A DNA stretch of 64,000 bases from a bacterium (GTDB lineage: Bacteria > Armatimonadota > Fimbriimonadia > Fimbriimonadales > Fimbriimonadaceae), in assembly GCA_027483535.1 (NCBI GenBank), contig JAIXUN010000002.1:1054001-1118000 (forward strand), in the 5' to 3' direction. The notes beneath the pieces were generated by a model. It was not told the origin of the DNA. It saw only the letters and a list, made by a program, of their open reading frames with translations, and made no database searches. Of this stretch, positions 965 to 23,081 are shown one piece after another (within the stretch, counting starts at the first letter, position 1; each line of letters begins with the position of its first letter). Position numbers and translations under genes: made by a program.

Positions 965-2377
965 CTAAGGATTAACTAAACGTCCCATCTCCCCAGCCTG
1001 CACGCGGTTCATCTCGACCTCCTCGCGGAGCACCTCGATGTCGACAGGCGGCAAGCCTAGCTCGTCGTACAGCGCGGGGAGCTGATCAAGCTTGATGAAG
1101 CCCTTCGCATAGCCGTCCGAGTAGGCGGTCATGGCGACGAATCGGTCCTGTTGCTCGAGCTTCGATAGGCTGAAGTTTGGCGCGTAAGGCACCTCGCTGT
1201 CACCGAAGTTCACCGACACAAGCAAGCGGGAGAGTGACTTCATCGCGTTTCCGAGGCGCCGTCGCGCGTTGGCCACCCGCAAACCGAGAACGTCCTGTCC
1301 GACCGCCTTCGAGGAGCGAGACTCGTGTTGCGCCTCCTTGGTCGCTTGCGAGGTTCCGAGGATCGCCTCGTGGATCTGACGTCCGAAGTACTCGAAGGCG
1401 TGAGCGAACGCCTGGCCGTCGCTATCGGGCGACATGAGGTCAATCTCCGTGCCGCCGGGCACCACGAGTGCGTAGGCGTTCTTCCACGCGATCAGCTGGT
1501 TGAGCAGCTTCTGAGCCTTGGGCGTGAAGACCGGCTTGTCGTCCTTGAGGACAGGCTGACCATCCTCGCCGAAGACCTGCTCTAGTGGCTGAGCGCCTGC
1601 GGGATCATCGACCGGCTTCGGTAGCTTGCCGACAACCGAGCCGCCCGCGAAGAGCTTGAGGAACCGGAAGAACTCCGGGAGCAGCTGAGTCTTGATGAAC
1701 CACGGCGTGTACGCCGGACGGAGTATTGAGCGCCCGAGCACGTCGTTCTCCTTTGGTCTGAAGGTGTGGACGATGAACTTCCACTTCGGGATGACGTTGT
1801 TCCACGTCTCGACTTGCGTCTCGTCCGACTCGGCAAGTGCCTGCGCCTGGTCGTTTCCGAGCGGTTGGGTTGGGCGAATGCCTACGAGGGCACCGTCTCG
1901 CCCGATGACGTACTCCATGTGCTTTGCCGACTTGACCTTGAGTGACTTGGGGATCAGCTTGCCGGCAAACTCGCCCGAACCGGGCTGCAGAACGATCTCC
2001 GCCACACGCGAGCCAAATGCTGCCGCGTCCATGAGCTCAAGCGCGACATCGCTCAGGTCTATCTCGCCCGCGGTGATCGCGTTCTCCACCCACTGGGCAT
2101 ACACGTTCCGCTTGTCTGCCTCGTCCTTGGGATCGCCACCAGGCGCAGGGCTGATCCGAACTCCGTCGGCACACACGGCCAAGGCAAACGTGTCAAAAGC
2201 GCTCGACACTTCCGTGTCTTTGAGCATCCGCTCGTAGATGTCGGCCCCGAACTGCTGAGTGTTGTCGTCGAGGAAGAGCGGGGAAACCGACTGGACTGCG
2301 TAGATCGCCGCCCACGTTAGGTCGGTGCCACCTGCGAGGAATTCTTCGACTGCTAGGTTCTGATCGACTACGAGCAC
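965..2377 (-). CDS. Phage portal protein, Mu gp29 / DUF935 family
   Basis: The 470-residue product matches the Mu gp29-type (DUF935) portal family in length and in its pattern: an N-terminal helix pair with a MLKDTEVSSAFDTFALAV segment, a central EIVLQPGSGEF sheet region, a conserved HTFRPKENDVLGRSILRPAY stretch, and a helical C-terminus. Portals form the dodecameric ring at one capsid vertex through which DNA is packaged and ejected. The GTG at 2377 fits the family N-terminus. The gene is on the minus strand although terminase and head morphogenesis genes flanking it are on the plus strand. Its 5' end faces the 5' end of the next gene across 33 bases. Confidence 0.88.
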   Translation of the reverse strand: MLVVDQNLAVEEFLAGGTDLTWAAIYAVQSVSPLFLDDNTQQFGADIYERMLKDTEVSSAFDTFALAVCADGVRISPAPGGDPKDEADKRNVYAQWVENAITAGEIDLSDVALELMDAAAFGSRVAEIVLQPGSGEFAGKLIPKSLKVKSAKHMEYVIGRDGALVGIRPTQPLGNDQAQALAESDETQVETWNNVIPKWKFIVHTFRPKENDVLGRSILRPAYTPWFIKTQLLPEFFRFLKLFAGGSVVGKLPKPVDDPAGAQPLEQVFGEDGQPVLKDDKPVFTPKAQKLLNQLIAWKNAYALVVPGGTEIDLMSPDSDGQAFAHAFEYFGRQIHEAILGTSQATKEAQHESRSSKAVGQDVLGLRVANARRRLGNAMKSLSRLLVSVNFGDSEVPYAPNFSLSKLEQQDRFVAMTAYSDGYAKGFIKLDQLPALYDELGLPPVDIEVLREEVEMNRVQAGEMGRLVNP

Positions 2378-2410
2378 CTTGCCTCATACGAGTGCTTCGT
2401 ACCGGGCTGT

Positions 2411-3448: not shown

Positions 3449-3928
3449 CTACTGCCCCAAAGCCTCGCTAACGCGCTCCTGCGCCACCTTCGTAGCGATC
3501 TCGCGCACCTTGTCGACGGCTGGTCCAAGGAAGGCAAGGCGCTTCTCTTGCGGTCCTGCATAGGAGGCGGAGATGCCGACCTTTGCCTCATATGGAGTCT
3601 CGGGCGTGTACTCGCTTGGGAACGTCTCAAACTCTCGACCGCCTTTTGTCTTGGCACCCGGTCCGGCGGCGAGCTTGGCGGCTTCAGCCTTAGCTTGCTC
3701 TCGCAGGCTGTCCGATTCCCCACCGACCTGGAAAAAGGCGGAGGCCTTCATCGCGCCAGTGTCAATCTGATTGTTCTTGACGATATTCTCTTGGACCTCA
3801 TCGAGCGCCAAGGTCGCCAAGTCGCGGATCGCCTCGGACATTCCCTTCTGGACGGCGTTCAAGGCCCGATCCCAGGCGGAGAAGTCGACAATGACGTCGT
3901 CGAAGGTTATCTGTTTGGGATCTGCCAC
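3449..3928 (-). CDS. Tail completion / virion morphogenesis protein, HK97 gp10- or Mu gpG-like
   Basis: The 159-residue protein opens with an amphipathic helix (DFSAWDRALNAVQKGMSEAIRDLA) and has the key NQIDTGAMKAS motif, the DTGxLxxS signature of HK97 gp10/Mu gpG-type proteins. The C-terminal half is beta-rich with YAGPQEKRLAFLGPAVDKV, where family members have a YAxxxExG segment. The family acts at the head-tail junction or in tail completion. Placement right after the gpF-like gene matches Mu gpG. It is alone on the minus strand, convergent with the gpF-like gene and divergent from the gene at 4113. Which of the two family roles it plays cannot be decided from sequence. Confidence 0.68.
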   Translation of the reverse strand: MADPKQITFDDVIVDFSAWDRALNAVQKGMSEAIRDLATLALDEVQENIVKNNQIDTGAMKASAFFQVGGESDSLREQAKAEAAKLAAGPGAKTKGGREFETFPSEYTPETPYEAKVGISASYAGPQEKRLAFLGPAVDKVREIATKVAQERVSEALGQ

Positions 3929-4038
3929 TCAGCCTCCTTACGAAAAGAGGTTGAATTAAAGCTCGTATGGAGACGACGACTCTAGGGCAAATGATGCGCA
4001 CTTTTGATGCTGAAAATGCGCGAATGTTGTAATGCTCT

Positions 4039-4250: not shown

Positions 4251-4441
4251 GGCTCTGCCGACCCGGTTGTTCACGCAATCGGGCGGCTCCTAGATAATAG
4301 GCTCCTTTTACGTCGTCAAACTAGCACATAAATGTCTACACTTACGTGATCGTTTCTCGTGGATAATCCGTACCGTTCGCAAGGTCCGTTTAAGGCGCGG
4401 CATGGGGCTGTACGACGGTGCCTCCCGTATCGGGCTTGGTC

Positions 4442-8898: not shown

Positions 8899-8931
8899 CT
8901 CTTCCCGATACGGCTCTCGTAGTGGGCGGAT

Positions 8932-10737
8932 GTGGTCCGCTATCTCGATCCAACCGTAGTAAACAACGCCGCGACGTGGACCAGCGAAGCAAACGTTCTT
9001 GCTTACGATTCGCTATATGCCTCGCACTCTCCAGGCGCGACTACATCGTGGTTGATCACGGGAGCGTTCACGGATCGGGTCCTTCCAGACGGGATCGAGA
9101 TCGTCGGGATCACCGTCGAGCTCGACGGCAGGTTCGGGGAGATCCAGCCTCCGATTGAGATCGAGTCGCCCAACCCCAAGCGTTGGGAAGTGTCGCTCAC
9201 CCTCAACGGATCAACGGCCGCAGCTACCAAGTTCGCGAGTTATGTCACCGGAGGACTGATAACCCTCGGTTCGGAGACCGATGCCTGGGACCGAGTGTGG
9301 ACGCCTTCTGAGATCGCCTCAGCCACCTTCGGGGTGATGGTCAGGCGCGGTGACGTATTGGGCGGGGAGGACACTGCCAGCACGCGATACATCAACGCGA
9401 TCCGGGTGGCAGTTCATTTCAACTATGACGGAGGATCGATCCTAATGGCAGACCGAATCGTAGGTTTGCAGAGAAGTGTTGTAGCACCCGAAACCACCCC
9501 TGGCGCAGGTGCTACCCCGACTACATTGCTTCGCGCGTCGAAGCTTGAACTTGCTCCAAGGCCGGAGTACACGGACATCGCCCACTACGGGCAATTGGTG
9601 CCCGGCGACCGGGTTCTGGTGTACGAGAGCGCAGAAGGCTCGCTCGCCGGAGCGCCTGACTACAACGAGATCGGTGTATGGCTTGCAGGTCGGTGCGGAA
9701 GGCCGGTTTCGACCACGCTCTCGACGGGCGTCTATCGGCACGAGTTCACCATCGACACTCGGAACAAGATCAACCCTCGGACGTACGAGATGCACTTCGG
9801 CTCGCCCGATGATGCGGTCTCCGAAGCGTTCCAGTACGTGTTCCTTAGGGCGTTCGGCATGAGCTTCACCAAGAAGGAAGTGTCGATGTCTGGAACGGGC
9901 ATGGGGCGAAGGATGATCGACCGGGCGCAGAAGCTCGGCGGAGGCGGAAACGCTGTCCAGACGCTGACCCTTTCAGGCTCGCCGACGGGCGGAAACTTTA
10001 CGCTTCGCTTCAAGGGTGCTCCAACCACGAGCCTGTCCCACAACGCCACAAACTCGGCGATTCAGGCGGCTCTCGAAGCACTTGCCACTATCGGTGCTGG
10101 AAACGTCGCGGTGACGGGCTCCGGTCCATTCACAATCACGTTCACAGGCGCACTGGCAGGGAAGGAGCAACCGCTCCTTGAGTTCACGAACGCGTTGACG
10201 GGTGGAACCTCACCGACGCCTTCGATCAGTGGCACCACGAAGGGTGGTTGGGTTGAATACCCGTCGGCTCCGATCGTTGCGGGCAAGGCGGCGGTCTATC
10301 TGGCGACGACTCTCGCAGGCCTTCCGGCGGGCAAGATGTCTCAGCTGCACAAGTTTGGGTTTGAGTTCACGGATTCGTTCGATCCGGTCGACCTCATGGA
10401 TCCAGACCAGGTCTCGTTCTCGGACATCGCAGAGAAGCCGCACAACATCATCTCCTCGATGGGAGTGACCATGGACGCGGGTGGCCAGACACTTGCCTCG
10501 GTGGCCCGGTCTCAGGACGCTCGGTACATCCGAGTTGCTATGACTTCGGATCAGGTGATCACCTCGGGGAACCCGTACTCACTGACCGTCGACTTCTACG
10601 GCAAGCTCAAGGATGCGGGCACGGTCGAGGCGATGGGCCAGGTGCAGGGTCGAAACTTCACCGTGGAGACGCTCTACGACAACGCATGGGGGCAATCGGG
10701 TCGGATTGTACTGATCAACGCTGTCGCGAGCTACTAA
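8932..10737 (+). CDS. Major tail tube protein with N-terminal jelly-roll-like domain (long form)
   Basis: The open frame gives 601 residues from GTG 8932. Residues 1-170 form a beta-rich, carbohydrate-binding-like domain (WLITGAFTDRVLPDGIEIVG ... VMVRRGD). From M172 (ATG 9445) follows the tube protein proper, with PTTLLRASKLELAPRPEY and a tube-type beta barrel. It holds an Ig-like insert at about 344-435 (QTLTLSGSPTGGNFTLRFKG ... GPFTITFTGALAG) known from many phage tail tubes. The two parts are in one frame without a stop. The tube protein polymerises around the tape measure. The long form could be a minor decorated subunit, or a genuine gene fusion. See the nested start at 9445. Confidence 0.72.
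   Translation: MVRYLDPTVVNNAATWTSEANVLAYDSLYASHSPGATTSWLITGAFTDRVLPDGIEIVGITVELDGRFGEIQPPIEIESPNPKRWEVSLTLNGSTAAATKFASYVTGGLITLGSETDAWDRVWTPSEIASATFGVMVRRGDVLGGEDTASTRYINAIRVAVHFNYDGGSILMADRIVGLQRSVVAPETTPGAGATPTTLLRASKLELAPRPEYTDIAHYGQLVPGDRVLVYESAEGSLAGAPDYNEIGVWLAGRCGRPVSTTLSTGVYRHEFTIDTRNKINPRTYEMHFGSPDDAVSEAFQYVFLRAFGMSFTKKEVSMSGTGMGRRMIDRAQKLGGGGNAVQTLTLSGSPTGGNFTLRFKGAPTTSLSHNATNSAIQAALEALATIGAGNVAVTGSGPFTITFTGALAGKEQPLLEFTNALTGGTSPTPSISGTTKGGWVEYPSAPIVAGKAAVYLATTLAGLPAGKMSQLHKFGFEFTDSFDPVDLMDPDQVSFSDIAEKPHNIISSMGVTMDAGGQTLASVARSQDARYIRVAMTSDQVITSGNPYSLTVDFYGKLKDAGTVEAMGQVQGRNFTVETLYDNAWGQSGRIVLINAVASY
9445..10737 (+). CDS. Major tail tube protein, probable short form from internal start
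   Basis: ATG 9445 (MADRIVGLQRSVVAPETTPG) lies where tube proteins usually begin. It is preceded by GGAGG at 9430-9434 with a 10-base spacing, a much better ribosome binding site than the one before GTG 8932. The 430-residue product would hold the whole tube domain and the Ig-like insert. If both starts work, virions would contain tube subunits with and without the N-terminal domain. The alternative is that only one start is used. The choice rests on the site sequence and family lengths. Confidence 0.55.
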   Translation: MADRIVGLQRSVVAPETTPGAGATPTTLLRASKLELAPRPEYTDIAHYGQLVPGDRVLVYESAEGSLAGAPDYNEIGVWLAGRCGRPVSTTLSTGVYRHEFTIDTRNKINPRTYEMHFGSPDDAVSEAFQYVFLRAFGMSFTKKEVSMSGTGMGRRMIDRAQKLGGGGNAVQTLTLSGSPTGGNFTLRFKGAPTTSLSHNATNSAIQAALEALATIGAGNVAVTGSGPFTITFTGALAGKEQPLLEFTNALTGGTSPTPSISGTTKGGWVEYPSAPIVAGKAAVYLATTLAGLPAGKMSQLHKFGFEFTDSFDPVDLMDPDQVSFSDIAEKPHNIISSMGVTMDAGGQTLASVARSQDARYIRVAMTSDQVITSGNPYSLTVDFYGKLKDAGTVEAMGQVQGRNFTVETLYDNAWGQSGRIVLINAVASY

Positions 10738-10759: not shown

Positions 10760-10790
10760 AAGGAGGCTGAGGGATTCCCTCAGCCTCCTT
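10760..10790. terminator. Bidirectional terminator between tail tube and chaperone genes
   Basis: AAGGAGGCTGAGGG (10760-10773) pairs perfectly with CCCTCAGCCTCCTT (10777-10790) across a 3-base loop. This 14-bp hairpin lies between the tail tube stop (10737) and the end of the minus-strand chaperone extension (10780), so it serves both converging transcripts. The left arm contains the stop codon of the frameshift product. T-rich bases follow on the plus strand (TTCTTTCTTT). Confidence 0.75.
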
Positions 10791-11315
10791 GTTCTTTCTT
10801 TCGCTTCGTTTCGATCTCGGCGTCGGCCTGGGCTTGCATGACTCCGAGCAGACGGTAATAGTCCTCTGCTGGCATTGCCCGAATCTCAGCGGGCGTCTTG
10901 CTTAGCTTGAGGGCTAGGAGCGCTTCTTCCTGCCACGGGTAGATTTCGCCCCACTCACCTTCGGTTGAGAACCAGAGGGAGAGGTCGGCGAGTTCTGATC
11001 TTTTGGGGACAGTTCACCAAAGATCGAGTCGACGCAGGCGTGAAGTACTGCGAGCGGGACGGAGTGATAGCCCTCAATCGTGTTCGGCACGGGTTTGCCG
11101 TTGTTAAGGAGATCCCACTCGGCTTGGACGTCGACGAGGAACTTGGCGATCCGTTCGGACTGCTCAAGCTCGTCCTCCATCTTCAGCCCTTCGCGGAAGG
11201 AACGGAGGCCGCCGATGGACATGTTGCCGATTGCGAACGAGACGCTGATTTCAAGCTCTGCGACGTGAGCGGTAGTGGTGCGACGCTCGAATTGAGCCGT
11301 TGATAGGTCGGGCAT
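10780..11315 (-). CDS. Tail assembly chaperone frameshift fusion, lambda gpGT-like (178 residues)
   Basis: After K105 the -1 frame remains open for 73 more residues (RSELADLSLWFSTEGEWGEI, then YPWQEEALLALKLSKTPAEI and a DYYRLLGVMQAQADAE helix) to a TGA at 10780-10782. This tail is clearly protein-like and resembles gpT extensions, while the zero frame there is low-complexity. A canonical slippery heptamer C CCA AAA sits exactly at the join, read on the minus strand (plus 11001-11007). Lambda and many tailed phages make G and GT in this way and need a set ratio of the two. The frame shift is read directly. The efficiency cannot be known from sequence. Confidence 0.75.
10914..11315 (-). CDS. 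Tail assembly chaperone, lambda gpG-like (short form)
   Basis: The 133-residue zero-frame product has a folded N-terminal part (residues 1-104) with VAELEISVSFAIGNMSIGGLRSF and helices to about 102, then a basic, low-complexity end (KSTRGRKKRS). Gene position between tail tube and tape measure, size, and the frameshift extension described at 10780-11315 are all typical of the lambda G gene. Such proteins bind the tape measure during tube assembly and are absent from the virion. It is on the minus strand, unlike the tube and tape measure genes it serves. Confidence 0.72.
   Translation of the reverse strand: MPDLSTAQFERRTTTAHVAELEISVSFAIGNMSIGGLRSFREGLKMEDELEQSERIAKFLVDVQAEWDLLNNGKPVPNTIEGYHSVPLAVLHACVDSIFGELSPKDQNSPTSPSGSQPKVSGAKSTRGRKKRS
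11001..11007 (-). promoter_or_regulatory. Programmed -1 ribosomal frameshift site
   Basis: On the minus strand the zero-frame codons TCC CCA AAA GAT contain the heptamer C-CCA-AAA, a perfect X-XXY-YYZ slippery site (CCA AAA slips to CCC AAA). It lies at codons 104-105 of the tail assembly chaperone, and slipping opens the 73-residue extension. No obvious stimulatory hairpin was identified. Confidence 0.75.
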
Positions 11316-11413
11316 GCTGCCCTTTTACGACCAAGTTGCTTCGCTGAAGGGGACGATCCTGGCTAGATCGATGATGTGAAACCAACGAGGATGGTGAAAC
11401 GTGAGTTCTGGTG

Positions 11414-11614
11414 TTATCGTCCGCAGCACGTGCAGGGATCAGACGAAGACGGACCCGTTATCATCCGGATCACATCCTTTGCCGCCTTTCGTTCCTTTAT
11501 GAAATCATCGCTCGGAAGTCGCTGAATGCGTTGGTACTCGGCAATAACTTCCTCAGCTTCCTGATTGCTGAGGTTGATGAGGCCGGCAAGAACTAACTGT
11601 TGTCTCTTCTCCAT
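11414..11614 (-). CDS. Small protein downstream of SLATT-like membrane protein
   Basis: The 66-residue product (MEKRQQLVLAGLINLSNQEAEEVIAEYQRIQ...) is mostly helical and charged and ends in PCTCCGR, with three cysteines near the C-terminus. It begins 2 bases after the stop of the membrane protein gene at 11617-12219, so the two are one operon. Base composition is AT-richer than in the phage structural genes. I do not recognise the family. It could be a regulator or partner of the membrane protein. The 98 bases to the chaperone start (11315) hold no feature I can name. Confidence 0.5.
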   Translation of the reverse strand: MEKRQQLVLAGLINLSNQEAEEVIAEYQRIQRLPSDDFIKERKAAKDVIRMITGPSSSDPCTCCGR

Positions 11615-11616
11615 AA

Positions 11617-12219
11617 TTAGAAGTGTAGCCGAAAGTAGCTACAAACGCGACATTCCCCATTCATTTGTTGCGGAGCACTAAGGGGTACCTTCTTGCATGA
11701 TGGGCATGAGATCTGAAGGTGATGGAGTGCCGATCGATAACCGAAGACTTTTTCAGGGTGGGAAATCTCTTGAGAGTGCTCGTCTTGCGCTAGGCTGTTT
11801 TCAAGGTCCCAGCATTCGCTCATCTTTTTTCGTAGCTCTTCAGGGGATAAGGTATTTCGAAATGCATGCAATTTTTGGGACTCATTAAATATTCGAAGCT
11901 CCTGAATTTGCAGAGACATTGCTTTGGATAGCTTGTCGTCCCACTTTGCAAAGACTCCCCAAAGCGACAGTAAGAACTGAATAATTAGGATGATCGCGCT
12001 TAAGGTTATCACCGAACCAGTAGCCCACTGTTTGTCGGCAAGGACCAAGGAGCCCATCAGAGAGGGAACAACAAATCCCGTGAAACTGACCACTCTCAAT
12101 CGCCGAGTATAGACATTCACTCGTCTCGCAAACAGAATGTGAGTCGAATATGTTCTGATCCGTAGGTCATTCAGAAGTTTTAGGTCTTCGGTTGATTGCT
12201 CAAAGTTCGCGTCGCCCAC
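11617..12219 (-). CDS. SLATT-like membrane protein with C-terminal zinc-ribbon (CxxC pair)
   Basis: The 200-residue protein has an N-terminal charged helix (EQSTEDLKLLNDLRIRTYSTHILFARRVNVYTRRLRVVS), two adjacent membrane segments near residues 44-65 and 69-93, a charged helical region with conserved-looking WDLENSLAQDEHS, and a C-terminal CPSC-x14-CRVC zinc-ribbon-like motif. It resembles mobilome proteins of the SLATT group that carry a C-terminal CxxC pair. SLATT domains are predicted pore-forming effectors in conflict systems. It is AT-rich, on the minus strand between the chaperone and tape measure genes, and probably a cargo gene for defence or superinfection exclusion. The exact family spacing (x14 here) should be checked. 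Confidence 0.55.
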   Translation of the reverse strand: MGDANFEQSTEDLKLLNDLRIRTYSTHILFARRVNVYTRRLRVVSFTGFVVPSLMGSLVLADKQWATGSVITLSAIILIIQFLLSLWGVFAKWDDKLSKAMSLQIQELRIFNESQKLHAFRNTLSPEELRKKMSECWDLENSLAQDEHSQEISHPEKVFGYRSALHHLQISCPSCKKVPLSAPQQMNGECRVCSYFRLHF

Positions 12220-12262
12220 GGTACGTAGTATAGGGACAGAAAGAGCTATCGTACAGGGCGAG

Positions 12263-15200
12263 GTGGCAGACCTCGCCGAACTCTATCTCGTCCTCAAGGC
12301 CAAGGCCGACCCGCTCCTGAAGTCGATCAACGACATGAAGCGGGATGTCCCCAAGAAGATGGCCGAAGCTGGGAAATCGGGAGCGGTCGCGCTCGAAGCC
12401 GAGGCGGAGAAGGCTGGGACGGACGCTGGGAAGGCCGTTGGTGACGGTCTCAAGAAGGGAGCCAAGAAGGGCATGGACGATGCCCGGAAAGAAGTCGCTA
12501 AAGCGAAACCGACTTTACTCGCCGAGGTTTCCACTGTGGCGGGCTCTACAGGTCGATCCCTTTCGCTTGCCGTGAGTGCTCCTATCTCCGTCCTTGCCCG
12601 CGCGGCGATCAAAGAGGCGATGGGTGCCGAAACCGCCCTGTCGCAACTAAAGGGTGCTGCCGACGCCACCGAGGACCAGATCAAGCGGGCGACGATCAAC
12701 ACGCGCTTGCTAGTTGCCGACCTTCGCGACTTCGGACTGTCAGAAACGCAGGTCACCCAATCGACCACCGAACTCGCGAAAGCGGGTCTCACTCTCGACC
12801 AGGCGTTGAAGTCGACGAGGGCTTCTCTCATTCTTGCCTCTGCCGGTCAAATGGAAACGGCGGAGGCCGCACAAGTCACCGCAAATGCTCTCAACGCCTT
12901 CAGCCTCAAGGCAGAGGAAGCGGGGCGTGTCGTAGACATCATTGCAGGAACCGCCTCGGAGGCGTCCGGTGGGGTCAAGGAACTCACCGATGCGTTCAAG
13001 ATGGGTTCCGCAGTTGCCGCCCAGGCGGGCGTAGATATCAGCGATTTCAGTGCCGCTCTTGGTCTCATGGCCAATGCGGGCATGATGGGTTCTGACGCCG
13101 GCACGTCGCTCAAGAGTTCACTGCTTGCCCTGATCGGTCCTAGCAAGGAGGCAACGAAATACATGAAGGCTCTCGGTATCGAGGTCTTTACGTCCGAGGG
13201 GCGCATGAAGGCGCTCCCGGAAATCGTCCGACAGTTTGAGAAGGGCCTGGAGGGGCTGACCCAGAGACAGCGTTTGAAGGCGCTTACCGAGATCTTCGGG
13301 ACGGACGGAATTCGCGCGTTCAACATCCTGCTGAAGAACGGTTCTGATGGTCTATCTGACTTCGCAGACAAGGTTGATAAGTCTGGGAAGGCACAAAAGC
13401 TTGCGAACTCGATGATTGGCCCCACTCAGAAGCTTTTCAATCGCATGACGTCGGAGATCAAGGAAACCACCAAGGCACTTGGTGATGACCTTCTTCCGAC
13501 AGTTGCGAAGCTCGTCACCGAAGCTGCTGGAGCGGTTCGTTCGTTCCGGTCAACTTGGAACGGGTTCTCGCCAGAGATGAAAGAGTTCGCGCTAAAGACT
13601 CTCGCCTTTGGTGCAACCCTTGGTCCATTGGCAATCGGCCTCGGTTCCGTTGCTGGAGGCGTGAAGTCGATCATTGACCTCCGTGCCAGCTTCGTAGCGG
13701 CACAGGTGGCAAAACAAGCTGCCCTGGCGGGAACTACGACGGCTGCCGTTGCAACCAACGGTGCGCTCACTGGTCTGCTCGGGTCCATCAATCTATTGCG
13801 TTCGTCCTCGCTCATTCCGATCGTTTTTACAGCGGTCATTGGGTGGGAAATTGGAAACCAAGTCAAAGGTTGGATGGATAAACAAGCGAAGGGAGCCGGA
13901 TTTGATAATGCGGGCGAGATGTTCAACGACCCGTTCGGCGTTCTAGGTGAAGGTCGTTTTGGACGATTCTCTGAGCGGGAAAGGGTTCGCAAGGACGCTG
14001 AGCAAGCCGCACCCGGATTCATGGAGCGTTGGAATCGGGCACGAAGCCAAGGCCTGATTGGTAGCTTGATGAGGCAGGCTGGATTTAAAGGCTCTCAAGT
14101 GGTAATTCAGGGCAAGTCATCAGGGCAGCAAACTAACAAGATAGATCCCGAAGGCAACCTCCCGAAGACCGGCCGCGGTGGCGGTAGCACCAAGCGTGAT
14201 CCAGTTTCGGACCTCATAGACACGGGTCTGTCCACACTCAATCGACAGGAGTCCGAGAAGCGCATCAAGGCGTTCATGGATGCGGGCAATTGGACCGCTG
14301 CCGCTTTCGAACAGGCGGGAGGGAAGTTCTCGTCCCAGTGGGGACGCGTAACGGCCGCCAAGCGCAAAATCTTCGAGAAGCTAGGCGAGGGACTCAAGGC
14401 AGACTTCGTTGCCGAGCAGAAGAGCAAAGCCGCCGCCGCGAAGCAGATGGAGGCCGACCTCATGCGCGAGCTCCGTGAGGTGAACAACCCGGCGTCCATG
14501 GTGGACAAACTCTCTCGCGAGAAGTTCGGGAAGGACTTCGAGAATCTCACCGATCCGAAGAACCGTTCGCTCATCTCTCAGCTTGCCGGTGAGTACGACA
14601 AGAAGGACACGGCCGAGAAGAACGCAGAACGCGCGGACAGACTAGCTCGCGAGGAAGAGGCCCGGCTCGCAAGGCGTAATCGGTGGATCCTCGGGCGCAA
14701 CGACTCGGTGAAGAGTCTGGTTGATTCACTCGATGCCCAACTGCGGAAGGAACGGGAGCTCTCTACGTTTGAGCAGGTGGTAGCCGAAGCGAAAGAGAAG
14801 GGCATCCGGCTGAACTTCTTCGAGATCGCGGTTCTAAAGCAACGTGCTGCACAGGTCGACGCGCTCAAAAAATCGGAGAAGGAACGAGTAGACGCAGAGA
14901 AGGCTTCCGAGCTTCGAGCCGAGCAAATCCGTGATGCCAACGAGCAGTACGCCGATGCACTCGAAGAGATCGCCACGCAGGCCGCCCAGCTCGGCCGTTC
15001 TGGCGCACTAGCGGAGTTCCGCCTAAAAAGACTCGCCGTCACCTTTGGCTACGGTGCCACGGAGGCAGAGCGCCTTTCCACGGGCATGGACCGCGCCATG
15101 CGTGTGATGAAGGAGCAACTCCTTCTCCAAGACGTCAAGGTGTGGAGAGACGCCTTCGAGCGGGTAGCCGACGCCATCGTCGAGCCTATCCGAGATGCGC

Positions 15201-15694
15201 TCGGAGAACTCGTCACGGTGGACATGCCCGGCTTCTTCCGCTCACTCAACACGCTCGTCGGCAGGGCGCTCACGGAGTTCACAAACCAGATACTCGAGGC
15301 GCAGATTCGCCTTCAACTGAACCGCGCGATCGATTGGGGTGTTGGTCAGCTTTTCGGCGGTCAACTCGCTGGACTGACCGCTTCCGGCGGCGGTGGTGCG
15401 TTCATGCCCGCAGGGGTCTCGCTTAGCCCCGACGGCTCGCAGTCGATGCTAACGGGCTTTGCCAACGGAGGCGGCGTCGGAGCGGGCAGACCGATCGTTG
15501 TCGGCGAGCGTGGACCGGAAATCTTCGTGCCGTCACGGTCGGGCAACGTCGTGCCGAATCACCGGGCGGGTGTCGGCGGCGGGGGCGTTTACATCACGAT
15601 CAACGTTCAGGGTTCTGCGACGCGGGAGACTGCTCAGCAGATTGCGATGGAGGTTGCACGGGCGGTGGAATCGGCTCGGCGGAGTTTGGGGTGA
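12263..15694 (+). CDS. Tail tape measure protein
   Basis: The 1143-residue protein starts at GTG 12263. It opens with an Ala/Lys-rich helical region, then a TP901-type tape measure core at about 95-420 (FGLSETQVTQSTTELAKAGL, AQVTANALNAFSLKAEEAG, DFSAALGLMANAGMMGSDAG). Hydrophobic segments lie near 450-475 and 515-530, followed by long charged coiled coils. The C-terminus (LTGFANGGGVGAGRPIVVGERGPEIFVPSRSGNVVPN ... VYITINVQG) is the usual signature end of tape measures. The protein sets tail length: by the lambda rule of about 0.15 nm per residue, a tail of very roughly 170 nm is implied. It is the longest gene of the phage and is followed by the inserted metalloprotease module. Confidence 0.92.
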   Translation: MADLAELYLVLKAKADPLLKSINDMKRDVPKKMAEAGKSGAVALEAEAEKAGTDAGKAVGDGLKKGAKKGMDDARKEVAKAKPTLLAEVSTVAGSTGRSLSLAVSAPISVLARAAIKEAMGAETALSQLKGAADATEDQIKRATINTRLLVADLRDFGLSETQVTQSTTELAKAGLTLDQALKSTRASLILASAGQMETAEAAQVTANALNAFSLKAEEAGRVVDIIAGTASEASGGVKELTDAFKMGSAVAAQAGVDISDFSAALGLMANAGMMGSDAGTSLKSSLLALIGPSKEATKYMKALGIEVFTSEGRMKALPEIVRQFEKGLEGLTQRQRLKALTEIFGTDGIRAFNILLKNGSDGLSDFADKVDKSGKAQKLANSMIGPTQKLFNRMTSEIKETTKALGDDLLPTVAKLVTEAAGAVRSFRSTWNGFSPEMKEFALKTLAFGATLGPLAIGLGSVAGGVKSIIDLRASFVAAQVAKQAALAGTTTAAVATNGALTGLLGSINLLRSSSLIPIVFTAVIGWEIGNQVKGWMDKQAKGAGFDNAGEMFNDPFGVLGEGRFGRFSERERVRKDAEQAAPGFMERWNRARSQGLIGSLMRQAGFKGSQVVIQGKSSGQQTNKIDPEGNLPKTGRGGGSTKRDPVSDLIDTGLSTLNRQESEKRIKAFMDAGNWTAAAFEQAGGKFSSQWGRVTAAKRKIFEKLGEGLKADFVAEQKSKAAAAKQMEADLMRELREVNNPASMVDKLSREKFGKDFENLTDPKNRSLISQLAGEYDKKDTAEKNAERADRLAREEEARLARRNRWILGRNDSVKSLVDSLDAQLRKERELSTFEQVVAEAKEKGIRLNFFEIAVLKQRAAQVDALKKSEKERVDAEKASELRAEQIRDANEQYADALEEIATQAAQLGRSGALAEFRLKRLAVTFGYGATEAERLSTGMDRAMRVMKEQLLLQDVKVWRDAFERVADAIVEPIRDALGELVTVDMPGFFRSLNTLVGRALTEFTNQILEAQIRLQLNRAIDWGVGQLFGGQLAGLTASGGGGAFMPAGVSLSPDGSQSMLTGFANGGGVGAGRPIVVGERGPEIFVPSRSGNVVPNHRAGVGGGGVYITINVQGSATRETAQQIAMEVARAVESARRSLG

Positions 15695-15773: not shown

Positions 15774-16382
15774 ATGGTGATCTCACTAGAATCTCTCGTT
15801 CAAAGCCGTTCACGTGAGTTGCAGGTGATTCTGCAATGCGCGGATGACGCCCATCGTGTAGCCTTGGCTCGCCACCCAAAACTCGCTAGTGCGTTCGTTG
15901 GACCGTCCGAGCGCACCGATTGGCTGGATTTCGCACTGAAGGAACTTGGGGATCGCGGTGATTTCGTTCGGATTACGAAAGAGAACGAGAGGAGAAACTG
16001 GATTGAGCTTCACGATGGCGAATCGTGGCACAAGTTCGCTCCCTACTTTGCCCAATTGGAGAGTAATGACGCTTACACGATTCACGCGAAAGGCCGAGAG
16101 AAGGATGTCGTGCAACCGCTGCAGTTCGTATTACCAACGCTGGTTGACCACTCTTCGTCCACCGATCAGGGCGAATTGTACGGCTATGCGCTCCGAGTTT
16201 TTCGGCAAGAGGATAACGAGGAACTACCGGAGATTCATTTTGTGTTCGGAACAAAGCCGTCGAGAATGGATTTGCACAATGACGTGATTCGATGGGCGCA
16301 GCGAGCAATTGTTTCGAAGAAGGAGAAGCCGCAGAGTCTTGTTGAAGCCTACGAAGTGGAATTTAAACCAGAGCTGGCGTAA
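15774..16382 (+). CDS. Unrecognised protein paired with ImmA/IrrE-type protease
   Basis: The 202-residue product (MVISLESLVQSRSRELQVIL...) is mixed helix/strand without membrane segments or a known motif that I can name. Its stop TAA is directly followed by the GTG of the metalloprotease gene (16382/16383), so the two are co-translated. An AT-rich 79-base stretch before it likely holds a promoter of its own. The gene pair lies between the tape measure and tail tip genes, where no virion gene is expected. By position, it could be a toxin, a protease substrate or a cofactor of the HTH-protease protein. It is not a classical ParE/HigB toxin by sequence that I can see. Confidence 0.55.
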   Translation: MVISLESLVQSRSRELQVILQCADDAHRVALARHPKLASAFVGPSERTDWLDFALKELGDRGDFVRITKENERRNWIELHDGESWHKFAPYFAQLESNDAYTIHAKGREKDVVQPLQFVLPTLVDHSSSTDQGELYGYALRVFRQEDNEELPEIHFVFGTKPSRMDLHNDVIRWAQRAIVSKKEKPQSLVEAYEVEFKPELA

Positions 16383-17462
16383 GTGAACAAAATACCGATT
16401 CATCCCGTTCGGCTTGCAAGATATTATTCGGGGCTAACCCAATCCGAATTGGCGGCAAGAATTCGTCGCCCACAGTCCCAAATCGCGAGGATCGAAAAGT
16501 GGGAGTTGGACTGGACCATGCACTCAAGTGACTTGAGCAGAGCTACAGGTCTTCCCCTTGCGTTCTTTTCTCCTGAAAGGGAATGGTTGGAGCCCGATAC
16601 TGCGCTGTCGTTTCGGAAACCCAGCAGGTGCCCTGCGGCGGTGCGAGATAAAGCGATGTACTACGCCGTTGTCGGACACTCAAGCCTGGAGCCGATGGTT
16701 GCGAGTTTGATAAGGTATCCGAAGATTGCCGTACCATCAAGTCCAAGTCCAGAAGCCAACGGCTTAGCAGAGGCCCGAGAAATTGGGGCGGTGATTGCGA
16801 AAAACCTTCGCATATCTTGGGGTTTGGGATGGGGGCCAATAAGCGACGTCATTAAACTTGTCGAGTCGAAAGGCGTTCGAGTCTTTTTCGTCAATGAATA
16901 CAGTGAGTTTCTGGATGGATTTGCTTGTTGGACGGCTGGGATTCCTTATATTTTTCTAAATCAAAATGTCACTGATCCCGCAAGGCTACGGCTAGATGTT
17001 GCCCATGAACTTGGGCACCTTGTCATGCATCGAGATATCGCATTTGATGCTCGGACTGACATTATCGAGGCGATGGCTTTCGGTTTCGCAATCGAGTTTC
17101 TAGCACCTTGGCAAACACTAGAAGCAGAGGTTCCAAGTATTCCCGACCTACCGTTGCTTGGAAAGCTACGTAAACGTTGGAAGGTCTCAATGCAATCGAT
17201 TGTTCGCCATATGCATGCAAATAACGCAATCACCGATGCGGCATACGCGAACGCTTTCAGAAAGTTCTCATTTCTCGGTTATCGACGGGGGCCAGAACCT
17301 GTGTGGGTAGACCCTGATGAAAGCGTCATTCACAAGTATTTTGTAGCTGCCGCATCAGACAAACAGATTGATATTCCAAAACTGGCGGAGTCGTATGGGA
17401 TTTCCGACAGTGTTTTGGGGGCAATGATCCCAGCGACCCTAGGGAAACTCCAGCTTCTATGA
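16383..17462 (+). CDS. XRE-type HTH protein with ImmA/IrrE metallopeptidase domain
   Basis: The 359-residue protein begins with an HTH of Cro/XRE type (residues about 5-60: RLARYYSGLTQSELAARIRRPQSQIARIEKWE) and carries a zincin domain with DVAHELGHLVMH, the HExxH motif of the ImmA/IrrE (COG2856) family, at about 205-216. A likely third ligand lies in IIEAMAFGFAIEFLAP. Such proteins cleave repressors or act as antitoxins/regulators (ImmA of ICEBs1, IrrE of Deinococcus). The family is confident. The target is unknown and may be the phage repressor or the protein encoded just upstream. The pair is AT-richer than its neighbours, suggesting transfer as a unit. Confidence 0.82.
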   Translation: MNKIPIHPVRLARYYSGLTQSELAARIRRPQSQIARIEKWELDWTMHSSDLSRATGLPLAFFSPEREWLEPDTALSFRKPSRCPAAVRDKAMYYAVVGHSSLEPMVASLIRYPKIAVPSSPSPEANGLAEAREIGAVIAKNLRISWGLGWGPISDVIKLVESKGVRVFFVNEYSEFLDGFACWTAGIPYIFLNQNVTDPARLRLDVAHELGHLVMHRDIAFDARTDIIEAMAFGFAIEFLAPWQTLEAEVPSIPDLPLLGKLRKRWKVSMQSIVRHMHANNAITDAAYANAFRKFSFLGYRRGPEPVWVDPDESVIHKYFVAAASDKQIDIPKLAESYGISDSVLGAMIPATLGKLQLL

Positions 17463-20368: not shown

Positions 20369-22743
20369 GCACCTCCGCTATCGGTCGCATTGGCATCGGT
20401 TTGATCGGTGCAGGCATCGCCGCTTCGACGGGAGGAGATCCACGGACCGGATTCCAAGCGGGCATCGTCGTTGGCGGCTTCCTTTTCCCGGAGCGCCCGA
20501 ACCTCGATAACGGCAAACTCTCCGACCTTCGGCTCTCTGGGAGCTCCTTCGGGTCGCCGTGGCCGCGCATTTGGGGATCCGGTCGTGTCGGCGGGCAAGT
20601 CATCTGGGCTAGGCGAGTGAACGCAGCTGGAGACCACCTCAGGGGCGAGAAGCGTTCTGCTGGAAAGAAGGGAGGAGGAAGCGAGTGGGTCTACTTCACG
20701 ACCTTTGCCGTCGGCTTCTGCCAAGGCGCGATCTTCTTTCCCGATCCTTCGATTGACCCCGGTCGAGGGACGTTCGGCTATCGAAACCACTGGATCAAAC
20801 GGATCTGGTTCAACGACGAGGTGGTGTATCAGGCCTCTGGCCCCTCGACGGTCACCCTCAACAAGCACGGGGCAACAATTCGCCGCGGTGCCGAGGACCA
20901 GGCGGTGGTCTCGATCATCGCGGGATCCGAAGGCCTCAGCGGTAACACACCCGCGTTTCGGGGCACTGTCTACGCAGTGTTCGAGGACCTCAACCTCCGG
21001 ACCTATGGGAACACCATCCCGCAAATCTCAGCCGAGATTGTCACCGACGCCGTGAGCGCGGCGGACGTCCTGAGCGACCTTTGCCGCTCGGTTGGTCTCA
21101 AGGCCAGTGAGATCGACGTTACGGCCGTCGCTTCGCTCTCTGTCACGGGCTTCGTTTGGTCGACCAGAGAACCCGTCCGCAACGCGATTGAGCAGCTCTG
21201 CCGGGTGTACGACATCGACATCGTGGAGGTCGACGGGGTTCTACGGTTCATCCCTCGAGGTAGCGGATCAATCTTCCCGATTCCCGACGACTGGTTAGGG
21301 ACCGCCGAGGACGGAGCGAAGGGTATCCGGATCAGCCGAAAGCGCCTCCGGAAGGACGATCTGCCGGCACGGGTGACGGTGCAGTACTTCGACGCTTCGT
21401 CGCTGTATCAGGTCGGCTCGATGAGCGATTGGCGACAGACCGAAGGGAACGTTTCAGACCAATCGATCCCAACAGGATTGGTCCTAACCGGTGATGAGGC
21501 TCTCAAAATCGCAAAGCGAGAGATCGATCGTGCCTGGTCGGAGAACGAAGAGCTGAATCTGACCCTTCCGATGGCGGCTCTGCAGCTCGCGCCTGGTGAT
21601 CGGATCAGCGTGAACGTGCGGCCGTCGAGGTCGGTGACGGCCCGGATCACTTCTATGAAGCTTGCTCCAATCGGAGCGGTGAGCGTCACCGCGGTGATCG
21701 AGGACTCCGACGTCTCAATCCAAGTTGTCTCAGGCAGCACGGGCAACGCCGCACCAAAGGAATATCCCGTGGTCCCGTCTGCATTCGACTGTTGGTCCGA
21801 GAGGGAAGTAATCGACGCGCACTCGTCAACGGCAGGTTTCTATGTCGCAGCGACGGGCGAGACGGGGTGGTCAGGTGCTCAAGTCTGGTACCTCCCCCCA
21901 GGGGCAACGGAGTACATCGAGGGACCGTTCATCTCCGGGCGAGGAGTGTTCGGCGAGACGACTTCCGCACTCTCCAATTCGGGCGCGAGCATCGGAGTGA
22001 GGGACCTGACGAACACTGTCGGCGTTGATCTTAGTGATTCGGAAGGCGAACTAGAAACGCTCGAAGACGTTGCCGTCGATGGTGGGCAAAACTGGGCGTG
22101 GATCGGGGACGAGATCGTTGGGTTCTCAACTGCAACTCTAACCGGAGCCAACCAATACACCCTCTCTCGCTTGCTTCGCGGCATCCGCCTCTCAGCGCTG
22201 CCAACTCATTCGTCAGGCGAACGGTTCGCGCTCGCCAATTCTTCGGTCGCCCGCATTCAGGTGCCGGACGCGCACGTGGGCGAAACCTACCAAGTGAAGT
22301 GCGTCTCGCCTGGTCAGACGCTAGCCGATGTAACGGCGAAGTCCGTGGTCATCATCGCTCGGACCCCAACCACCACCGAGGCAACGGTATCGGGTCTTCT
22401 ACGCCCGCACTTCGTCACTCCGGCGGACGTAAGTCTGACGCTCGACGACACTTGGCGAAGCGCATCTGCTCCGGGTTCTGTGCCCGCGAACGCCCAACTG
22501 CTCATCGTTATGGTGGAGTGGGAAAACACCTCAGGATCCGCGACACGGAAAACACTTGAGGTGCGAAGCGGTCCGAGCGGAACAGCCTACGCGGTGGTCT
22601 CTTCCACTTCGGCGGCAACGGCCGATCTCTCGTCCGGATCGGCTCAAGTACTGCTTCCGGTGGGCGACTCCTTCGAGTACAAGGCACCGTCGGGCTGGAC
22701 CCTGCGCTTCACTGTTCAAGGCTACTGGGCACCCGAGTCGTAA
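20365..22743 (+). CDS. Tail tip / host specificity protein (J-like hub, GTA gp15-like)
   Basis: The 792-residue protein starts at GTG 20365. Its N-terminus is a glycine-rich hydrophobic stretch (IGRIGIGLIGAGIAAS, with GFQAGIVVGGFLF) of the type seen in phage tail J-like proteins, followed by LRLSGSSFGSPWPRIWGSGRVGGQVIW, a conserved landmark of tail tip proteins. The middle contains a hub segment (DVLSDLCRSVGLKASEID ... AIEQLCRVYDIDIVEVDGVLRF) and the C-terminus has fibronectin-like beta sandwiches. It is shorter than the GTA gp15 (about 1300 residues). It is expected to form the baseplate hub that opens on receptor contact. Confidence 0.85.
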   Translation: MSTSAIGRIGIGLIGAGIAASTGGDPRTGFQAGIVVGGFLFPERPNLDNGKLSDLRLSGSSFGSPWPRIWGSGRVGGQVIWARRVNAAGDHLRGEKRSAGKKGGGSEWVYFTTFAVGFCQGAIFFPDPSIDPGRGTFGYRNHWIKRIWFNDEVVYQASGPSTVTLNKHGATIRRGAEDQAVVSIIAGSEGLSGNTPAFRGTVYAVFEDLNLRTYGNTIPQISAEIVTDAVSAADVLSDLCRSVGLKASEIDVTAVASLSVTGFVWSTREPVRNAIEQLCRVYDIDIVEVDGVLRFIPRGSGSIFPIPDDWLGTAEDGAKGIRISRKRLRKDDLPARVTVQYFDASSLYQVGSMSDWRQTEGNVSDQSIPTGLVLTGDEALKIAKREIDRAWSENEELNLTLPMAALQLAPGDRISVNVRPSRSVTARITSMKLAPIGAVSVTAVIEDSDVSIQVVSGSTGNAAPKEYPVVPSAFDCWSEREVIDAHSSTAGFYVAATGETGWSGAQVWYLPPGATEYIEGPFISGRGVFGETTSALSNSGASIGVRDLTNTVGVDLSDSEGELETLEDVAVDGGQNWAWIGDEIVGFSTATLTGANQYTLSRLLRGIRLSALPTHSSGERFALANSSVARIQVPDAHVGETYQVKCVSPGQTLADVTAKSVVIIARTPTTTEATVSGLLRPHFVTPADVSLTLDDTWRSASAPGSVPANAQLLIVMVEWENTSGSATRKTLEVRSGPSGTAYAVVSSTSAATADLSSGSAQVLLPVGDSFEYKAPSGWTLRFTVQGYWAPES

Positions 22744-22751
22744 CGGGCACC

Positions 22752-23081
22752 GTGCAAGTTTGGACGACAGCAAAGCGCCTTTGTCAGTTCGAAGCCAACA
22801 CGGTAAGTGCGGGGTCGGCAAGGCGTCTCTTTGAATCTGGTGGGGTGAGTGCCAACACGAGTGGCCGGATCGTGGTGTGGGTCCACAACGCGGGTTCCTC
22901 CGGCGATATCTGGTACCGAAAGGTCGCGGCGGGAGCGGTGATCCCAACCATCAATGCGACGTCGAAGATGGGACGAATTCAGCCCGGTGAAACCATCCCG
23001 ATCGGGATCGAGGAGACCATTGATCTTGCGATCATCGCAAGTACAGGTTCCATCGCCTACGTGGCTTGGGAGGAGGCATGA
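22752..23081 (+). CDS. Small beta-rich tail protein
   Basis: The 109-residue protein (MQVWTTAKRLCQFEANTV...) is beta-rich with SGRIVVWVHNAGSSGDIWYRK and an IGIEETIDLAIIASTG end, a pattern of small virion decoration or tail-fibre-associated domains. It starts at GTG 22752, 9 bases after the hub gene, and its stop overlaps the next start (ATGA at 23078). No family is recognised, but its place between hub and SGNH tail protein argues for a tail tip part. Confidence 0.6.
   Translation: MQVWTTAKRLCQFEANTVSAGSARRLFESGGVSANTSGRIVVWVHNAGSSGDIWYRKVAAGAVIPTINATSKMGRIQPGETIPIGIEETIDLAIIASTGSIAYVAWEEA

Follow-up and report, generated by a model that had tools for sequence, protein, structure and literature searches.

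The production of a tail-building helper through a deliberate ribosomal slip is common among phages, and the sequences of tail assembly chaperones diverge fast. The G/GT tail assembly chaperone of phage λ was reportedly the subject of work by Xu, Hendrix and Duda in 2004. According to the excerpt of a later account, the λ pair is made at a 30:1 ratio, with G binding the tape measure protein and T binding the tube protein, and frameshifts of the G/GT type are widely conserved (PMC5009743). The ratio matters in phage TP901-1, since a forced fusion of G and T gives particles that look intact and lack infectivity, as the excerpt of that study reports (PMC4493119). As with the frameshift itself, the position of these genes follows a standard, the siphovirus order being tube, chaperones, tape measure; this is the order of the Cluster J mycobacteriophage Omega, whose frameshift chaperone pair gp32/gp33 lies beside the tube and tape measure genes, and the excerpt of that paper names no inversion of the chaperones (PMC3706429). 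In a Bacillus phage the structural genes occupy one strand and other genes the opposite one (excerpt of PMC6669507). A reversed GT is described in none of these excerpts, nor in those of the reports on a frameshift predictor (PMC10274946) and on the F. ginsengisoli prophage (PMC4072686), and in the literature surveyed, which was covered in part, we found no published tail chaperone on the opposite strand.

Here we analyse a stretch of 64,000 nucleotides (hereafter the window; C1:1054001-1118000 of a 3.77-Mb genome in four contigs), whose opening 27.5 kb or so are part of a prophage; at its start, further upstream, stands an integrase (L144:10548-11603). Judging by the positions of the integrase and the amidase, this prophage would extend from about 1026.5 to 1081.6 kb. 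It encodes helicases, a sigma-region-2 protein, a holin, a terminase and an amidase, and its virion genes include those for portal, MuF, the major capsid protein E, tape measure and tail tip. Between the tube and tape measure genes, both on the plus strand, a minus-strand gene that we call GT is found (Table 1). As far as the excerpts allow the comparison, GT shares with λ G/GT a short G, a -1 heptamer near its 3' end, a T in the -1 frame, and the tube and tape measure neighbours; unlike the λ genes it lies on the opposite strand, carries a putative start element of its own, meets a convergent hairpin, and has no detectable sequence match to named families. It likewise resembles TP901-1 gpG/gpGT in being a -1 frameshift pair, and Omega gp32/gp33 in its neighbours, but in the excerpts TP901-1 retains the usual synteny and Omega the standard order, whereas the GT of the window is reversed. 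The G/GT frameshift pair itself is therefore known, and what is new here is the rare arrangement of a reversed GT with what appears to be its own start element. With a probability of roughly 0.7, we read the locus as an ordinary G/GT chaperone of an integrase-type tailed prophage, placed in an inverted, self-starting late cassette.

Table 1. Coordinates (in the window), strand and basis of the features discussed
Feature	Position	Strand	Basis or remark
G, putative tail assembly chaperone, zero frame, 133 aa	10914..11315	-	ORF; HMM built without the window; AlphaFold model
C CCA AAA slippery heptamer in the G frame	11001..11007	-	sequence; same-register heptamer in 5/5 first relatives
T, -1 frame extension, 73 aa + stop TGA 10782-10780	10780..11001	-	ORF; HMM built without the window; helical model
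Perfect hairpin on which tube and GT converge	10760..10790	.	likely terminator; T-rich tail on plus strand
Motif CGTAAAAGGGC of GT, ATG 14 nt from motif C	11319..11329	-	sequence
Motif CGTACAGGGC before tape measure	12250..12259	+	sequence; homology with contig L022 starts here
Motif CGTAGTGGGC before tube	8918..8927	+	sequence
Motif CGTACCGGGC before MuF	2398..2407	+	sequence
Motif CGTATGAGGC before portal	2381..2390	-	sequence
Motif CGTAAGGAGGC before Neck1	3932..3942	-	sequence
Motif CGTATCGGGC before scaffold/protease-like gene	4426..4435	+	sequence
Motif CGTAACGGGC before ORF at 22752	22739..22748	+	sequence
Tail tube protein, convergent with GT	8932..10737	+	family and homology searches
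Tape measure protein	12263..15694	+	PF10145, E 6e-45
Portal (Portal_Mu)	965..2377	-	E 4e-38
Tail completion / Neck1	3449..3928	-	phrog_5, E 4e-5
Low-GC ORF, probable cargo	11617..12219	-	GC3 0.50; no convincing family match
66-aa ORF, probable cargo	11414..11614	-	GC3 0.55; no family match

The GT gene and the homology of its two frames

An earlier note, made from the letters of this DNA, had singled out C CCA AAA on the minus strand as a canonical slippery site. Within the 133-aa ORF the heptamer does stand in frame as X XXY YYZ (codons TCC CCA AAA GAT), about 30 codons ahead of the G stop, and the predicted -1 product has 105 + 73 = 178 residues, the length that had been proposed. Heptamers of this form stand in frame at 9 of the 5,564 codon positions of 12 structural genes of the prophage, two of them with AAA or TTT second, and a -1 run of at least 73 codons follows 14% of random codons. 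As a candidate stimulatory structure downstream of the slip site, the 71 nt that come after it gave a z of only -1.24; a 101-nt piece around the site folds with z -2.25. The -1 frame also ends, as had been noted, inside an arm of a likely terminator: the TGA falls within a hairpin made by a 15-nt perfect inverted repeat (10760-10774 / 10776-10790), with a fold of -29.9 kcal/mol and z -7.2. On the plus strand this hairpin is followed by GTTCTTTCTT, and it is therefore the probable end of the tube transcripts as well as of those of GT.

When 101 genomes were queried with G, matches were found in 7, and the tape measure query matched 12, the query genome being included in both counts. In two relatives (L023 and L024) both frames of the window match side by side behind a tube gene (tblastn, with E 4.5e-8 and 1.1e-6 for G, and 3.9e-10 and 1.5e-6 for T). 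A three-frame reading of five relatives (L023-L027) revealed, in all five, a heptamer in the G frame (as listed, CCCAAAC, CCCTTTA, CCCAAAA, CCCAAAA and CCCAAAC) and T in the -1 frame. HMMs for G and T were built from eight related phages, namely these five plus L064, L071 and L039, with the window left out; a slip-site script had picked out the last three loci, so the heptamers found there do not count as independent. The G model matched the window at 11324-10917 (E 2.9e-14) and the T model matched the -1 segment at 11013-10783 (E 2.7e-8), the next-best matches in the 64 kb having E of 2.4 and 0.51, none of them credible. Among 13 further, more distant G genes, seven have an in-frame heptamer within the last 45 codons, including three (L072, L075 and L081) already met via the slip-site script, and six have no strict heptamer. 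HMM searches of L144, L030 and the window found no second copy of G or T.

The search for kin was extended by other routes. Peptide patterns of G or T found no closer viral relatives, and tblastn with the relatives' G or T gave zero matches in named phages. A scan of the genome contigs with the tube query returned two loci only, which match G026 and G010; the two relatives met with this query carry the names Fimbriimonadaceae bacterium ACE_ARM1 and a Fimbriimonas MAG. The tube protein has an internal domain (at about residues 338-440) that is shared with many other phage proteins and dominates searches. One candidate relative, G011, was rejected, its contig L028 being without a phage backbone gene.

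The extension had been called gpT-like, with alignment to gpT families offered as the check. The values above show its homology with the -1 extensions that the relatives carry on the G gene behind their tube gene, and the refuting outcome named in the note, an extension lacking homology with chaperones, did not arise. No named chaperone model of Pfam or PHROG matches G or T of the window, or those of the relatives tried. Pfam gave nothing for either frame, and the sole PHROGs match was that of T to a family of unknown function (E 0.03). The label gpT-like therefore rests on position, frame, relatives and the likeness of the G fold. AlphaFold models G with a pLDDT of 77 and T as a helical domain with a pLDDT of 91.9. 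Foldseek aligned the G model in BFVD to a protein of Serratia phage Scapp annotated as 'Tape measure chaperone' (E 3.4e-3, prob 1.00) and to one of Gordonia phage Sixama annotated as 'Tail assembly chaperone' (E 0.015), matches to annotated chaperones ranging from E 3e-3 to 0.4, and found no fold match for G in the PDB. For the T model the BFVD matches were weak, the best having E 0.17, with a 'Tail assembly chaperone' of Bacillus phage 019DV002 in fifth place (E 0.31).

Strand and gene order around GT

That the chaperone gene stands on the strand opposite to its partners, as the earlier note had remarked, is plain from the ORFs. Because of this opposite strand and the intervening hairpin, its other proposal, transcription of GT apart from tube and tape measure, is supported as well.

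The related prophages (G029, G026, G038, G010, G024 and G028) and IMG/VR contigs have, like the window, a homologous G and T with an in-frame heptamer; unlike in the window, their GT lies on the strand of the tube gene, often with a stop/start overlap. In a census by six-frame HMM searches, which are neutral to strand, all 21 comparable loci have G immediately downstream of the tube gene and on its strand, and the window alone is reversed. Nine of these are genomes in which G and tube were verified (the six above plus G252, G145 and G151) and 12 are viral loci in which G adjoins the tube match (L063, L064, L065, L066, L067, L069, L071, L072, L075, L081, L085 and L106); L067 and L069 share one contig, so that the 21 loci represent 20 contigs. 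Fifteen viral loci had a G at E < 0.01, and three were set aside with G not adjoining the tube match. The census leaves out L077, L090 and L118 (weak G matches away from the tube match), G238 (tube unverified), L074 (G at E 0.18) and L068 (T only). The stop codon of the tube gene overlaps the start codon of G (TAATG or TGATG) in 4 of the 7 junctions read, those of L023, L142 (the genome of G026), L143 (the genome of G010) and L039. The contig shared by L067 and L069 (IMGVR_UViG_3300044712_002706, 77 kb, viral) has two tube-chaperone units far apart.

Given this arrangement in the relatives, the gene order of the window would most simply be a derived inversion. A single genome shows it, and in the nearest relative (L032, L022) the GT position falls in a contig gap. 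The GC3 of G (0.71) and T (0.64) is near that of portal, MuF and tube (0.72-0.79), so the composition agrees with a derived inversion; the two minus-strand ORFs upstream of GT have 0.55 and 0.50. We found no matching inverted repeats flanking the flipped segment. The best pair considered as inversion ends (10975-10997 / 12267-12289, 83%) was judged to be chance, because an inversion there would have separated T from G.

GT is not the only virion gene to change strand. Neck1 is on the minus strand in the window and in L032 and on the plus strand in L023 and L142, and portal is minus in the window and plus in L026. In the G010 phage (L026, L143), compared through the best single piece per gene listed and with gene ends approximate, the genes for capsid, decoration, scaffold and MuF stand on the minus strand and those for tube and tape measure on the plus strand, with tape measure ahead of tube. 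Strand changes of virion genes thus recur in related phages. The earlier note mentions neither the flipped portal and Neck1 nor the motif described below. Upstream of the tape measure gene, L022 has a different minus-strand gene adjoining, and for this reason the junction looks like a cargo site.

A motif ahead of virion gene starts

Comparison of gene starts gave CGTANNGGGC, which ends a few nucleotides ahead of the start codons. In its widened form, CGTAN(2-3)RGGC, it stands 13-16 nt ahead of the starts of portal, Neck1 and GT on the minus strand and of MuF, scaffold, tube and tape measure on the plus strand. The strict form, searched genome-wide as the motif followed by RTG within 1-7 nt, occupies 40 distinct places, of which 11 fall in the 55-kb prophage that makes up 1.5% of the genome (expected 0.58; binomial P 1e-11, for a motif defined post hoc, on sites already inspected). 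A reversed-pattern control gave 20 matches genome-wide compared to 45 for the motif. Widened to CGTAN(2-3)RGGC, the motif stands ahead of an ORF start at 12 of its 18 prophage sites vs 2 of 20 in 176 kb of host sequence, and each of seven permuted patterns yielded 0 or 1 start-preceding site in the prophage. The GT copy has a spacer of 3 nt where most have 2 and fits the widened pattern only. Since the pattern was widened after GT, Neck1 and portal had been seen, these three add no independent support, which comes from the strict form.

We saw no conserved -35 element at the motif starts, and sigma-70-type promoters amounted to one site vs 1.1 expected by shuffling. The 13-16 nt to the start codon and the missing -35 suggest that the motif is a -10-like element of nearly leaderless messages; alternatively, it may be a translation signal. 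It is rare in more distant relatives, and most of 20 genomes of the genus were, among the matches listed, without a comparable excess over the control. The portal and MuF copies lie back-to-back, 7 nt apart (window 2381-2407). The phage-encoded sigma-region-2 protein (L030:8183-9049, +) has a motif copy directly after it, at L030:9053.

Readings of the reversed GT

If GT is an ordinary G/GT chaperone in an inverted, self-starting cassette, most ribosomes would make gpG (133 aa) and a minority, slipping -1 at C CCA AAA, would make gpGT (178 aa), as in λ, G being the partner of the tape measure protein and T that of the tube protein. GT would start from a private copy of CGTAN(2-3)RGGC, the element heading other late units, and this private late start would restore its coordination with tube and tape measure, while the shared hairpin would keep the convergent tube and GT transcripts separate. 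Because the G:GT ratio would be set by the slip within one message, the inversion would leave it undisturbed; it could disturb how much G is made for a given supply of tube and tape measure protein. Thus the ratio would need no operon, and this dose of G might. A naturally reversed GT tests whether tail assembly needs cotranscription or translational coupling. If one start element recurs ahead of virion genes of either strand, this would account for a cluster that stays coordinated. We also entertain, tentatively and with somewhat less than even confidence, a broader idea in which the single late operon has been abandoned: virion cassettes would each be headed by CGTAN(2-3)RGGC and read by a phage-borne factor, perhaps the sigma-region-2 protein encoded upstream, so that order and strand were free to change, even to the point of GT on the opposite strand, the G:GT ratio still being set by the slip.

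The motif might instead be irrelevant to the expression of a standard G/GT chaperone, GT being carried by minus-strand cargo transcription (12219 to 11414) or by an unrecognised promoter, which we regard as unlikely. The cargo ORFs are indeed upstream of GT on its strand, the GT copy is a widened form, and the motif starts are without a conserved -35; but this copy stands 14 nt before the GT ATG, a spacing shared with tube and Neck1, the permuted controls are without it, and portal, which opens its minus-strand unit, carries the motif as well. A terminator-like site (11643-11624) lies at the end of the cargo ORF and would argue the same way, such sites as a class not being clearly above chance.

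A little less likely again, the motif would be mainly a recombination boundary where cassettes swap and invert, its use in expression being secondary. At three variable junctions (tape measure, DUF2460 and scaffold) homology with the nearest relative (L022, L032) begins at the motif or at most 5 nt from it, a pattern that constraint on a start signal would equally yield. Whole blocks are reordered and inverted in the G010 phage, yet L143, a relative with shuffled blocks, hardly carries the motif, and the flipped GT segment is without matching inverted repeats around it.

We consider it highly improbable that the orientation is an assembly error or the locus a decayed remnant. Although the reversed GT is known from one genome, and from its assembly alone, neither G and T nor the slip site and hairpin show damage, the flipped segment lies inside a 2.46-Mb contig, and its joints are without long inverted repeats; moreover, the minus-strand gene upstream of the tape measure in L022 and the minus-strand Neck1 of L032 both come from an independent metagenome. 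Least probable of all is a chance overlap of ORFs with no programmed frameshift, an idea that the HMM matches already contradict. Heptamers and -1 runs of this length can arise by chance, but T is homologous to the relatives' -1 frame and models as a confident helical domain.

Elsewhere in the prophage, a low-GC insert (15774-16382 and 16383-17462, both +) separates tape measure from DUF2460; it codes for an HTH/IrrE-type protein matching PADLOC RmrA models (E 1e-60), a candidate anti-phage cargo. Between terminase and portal lies a lower-GC ORF with hydrophobic stretches and no convincing family match (204-944, -), which converges on terminase, the two ending a few nucleotides apart.
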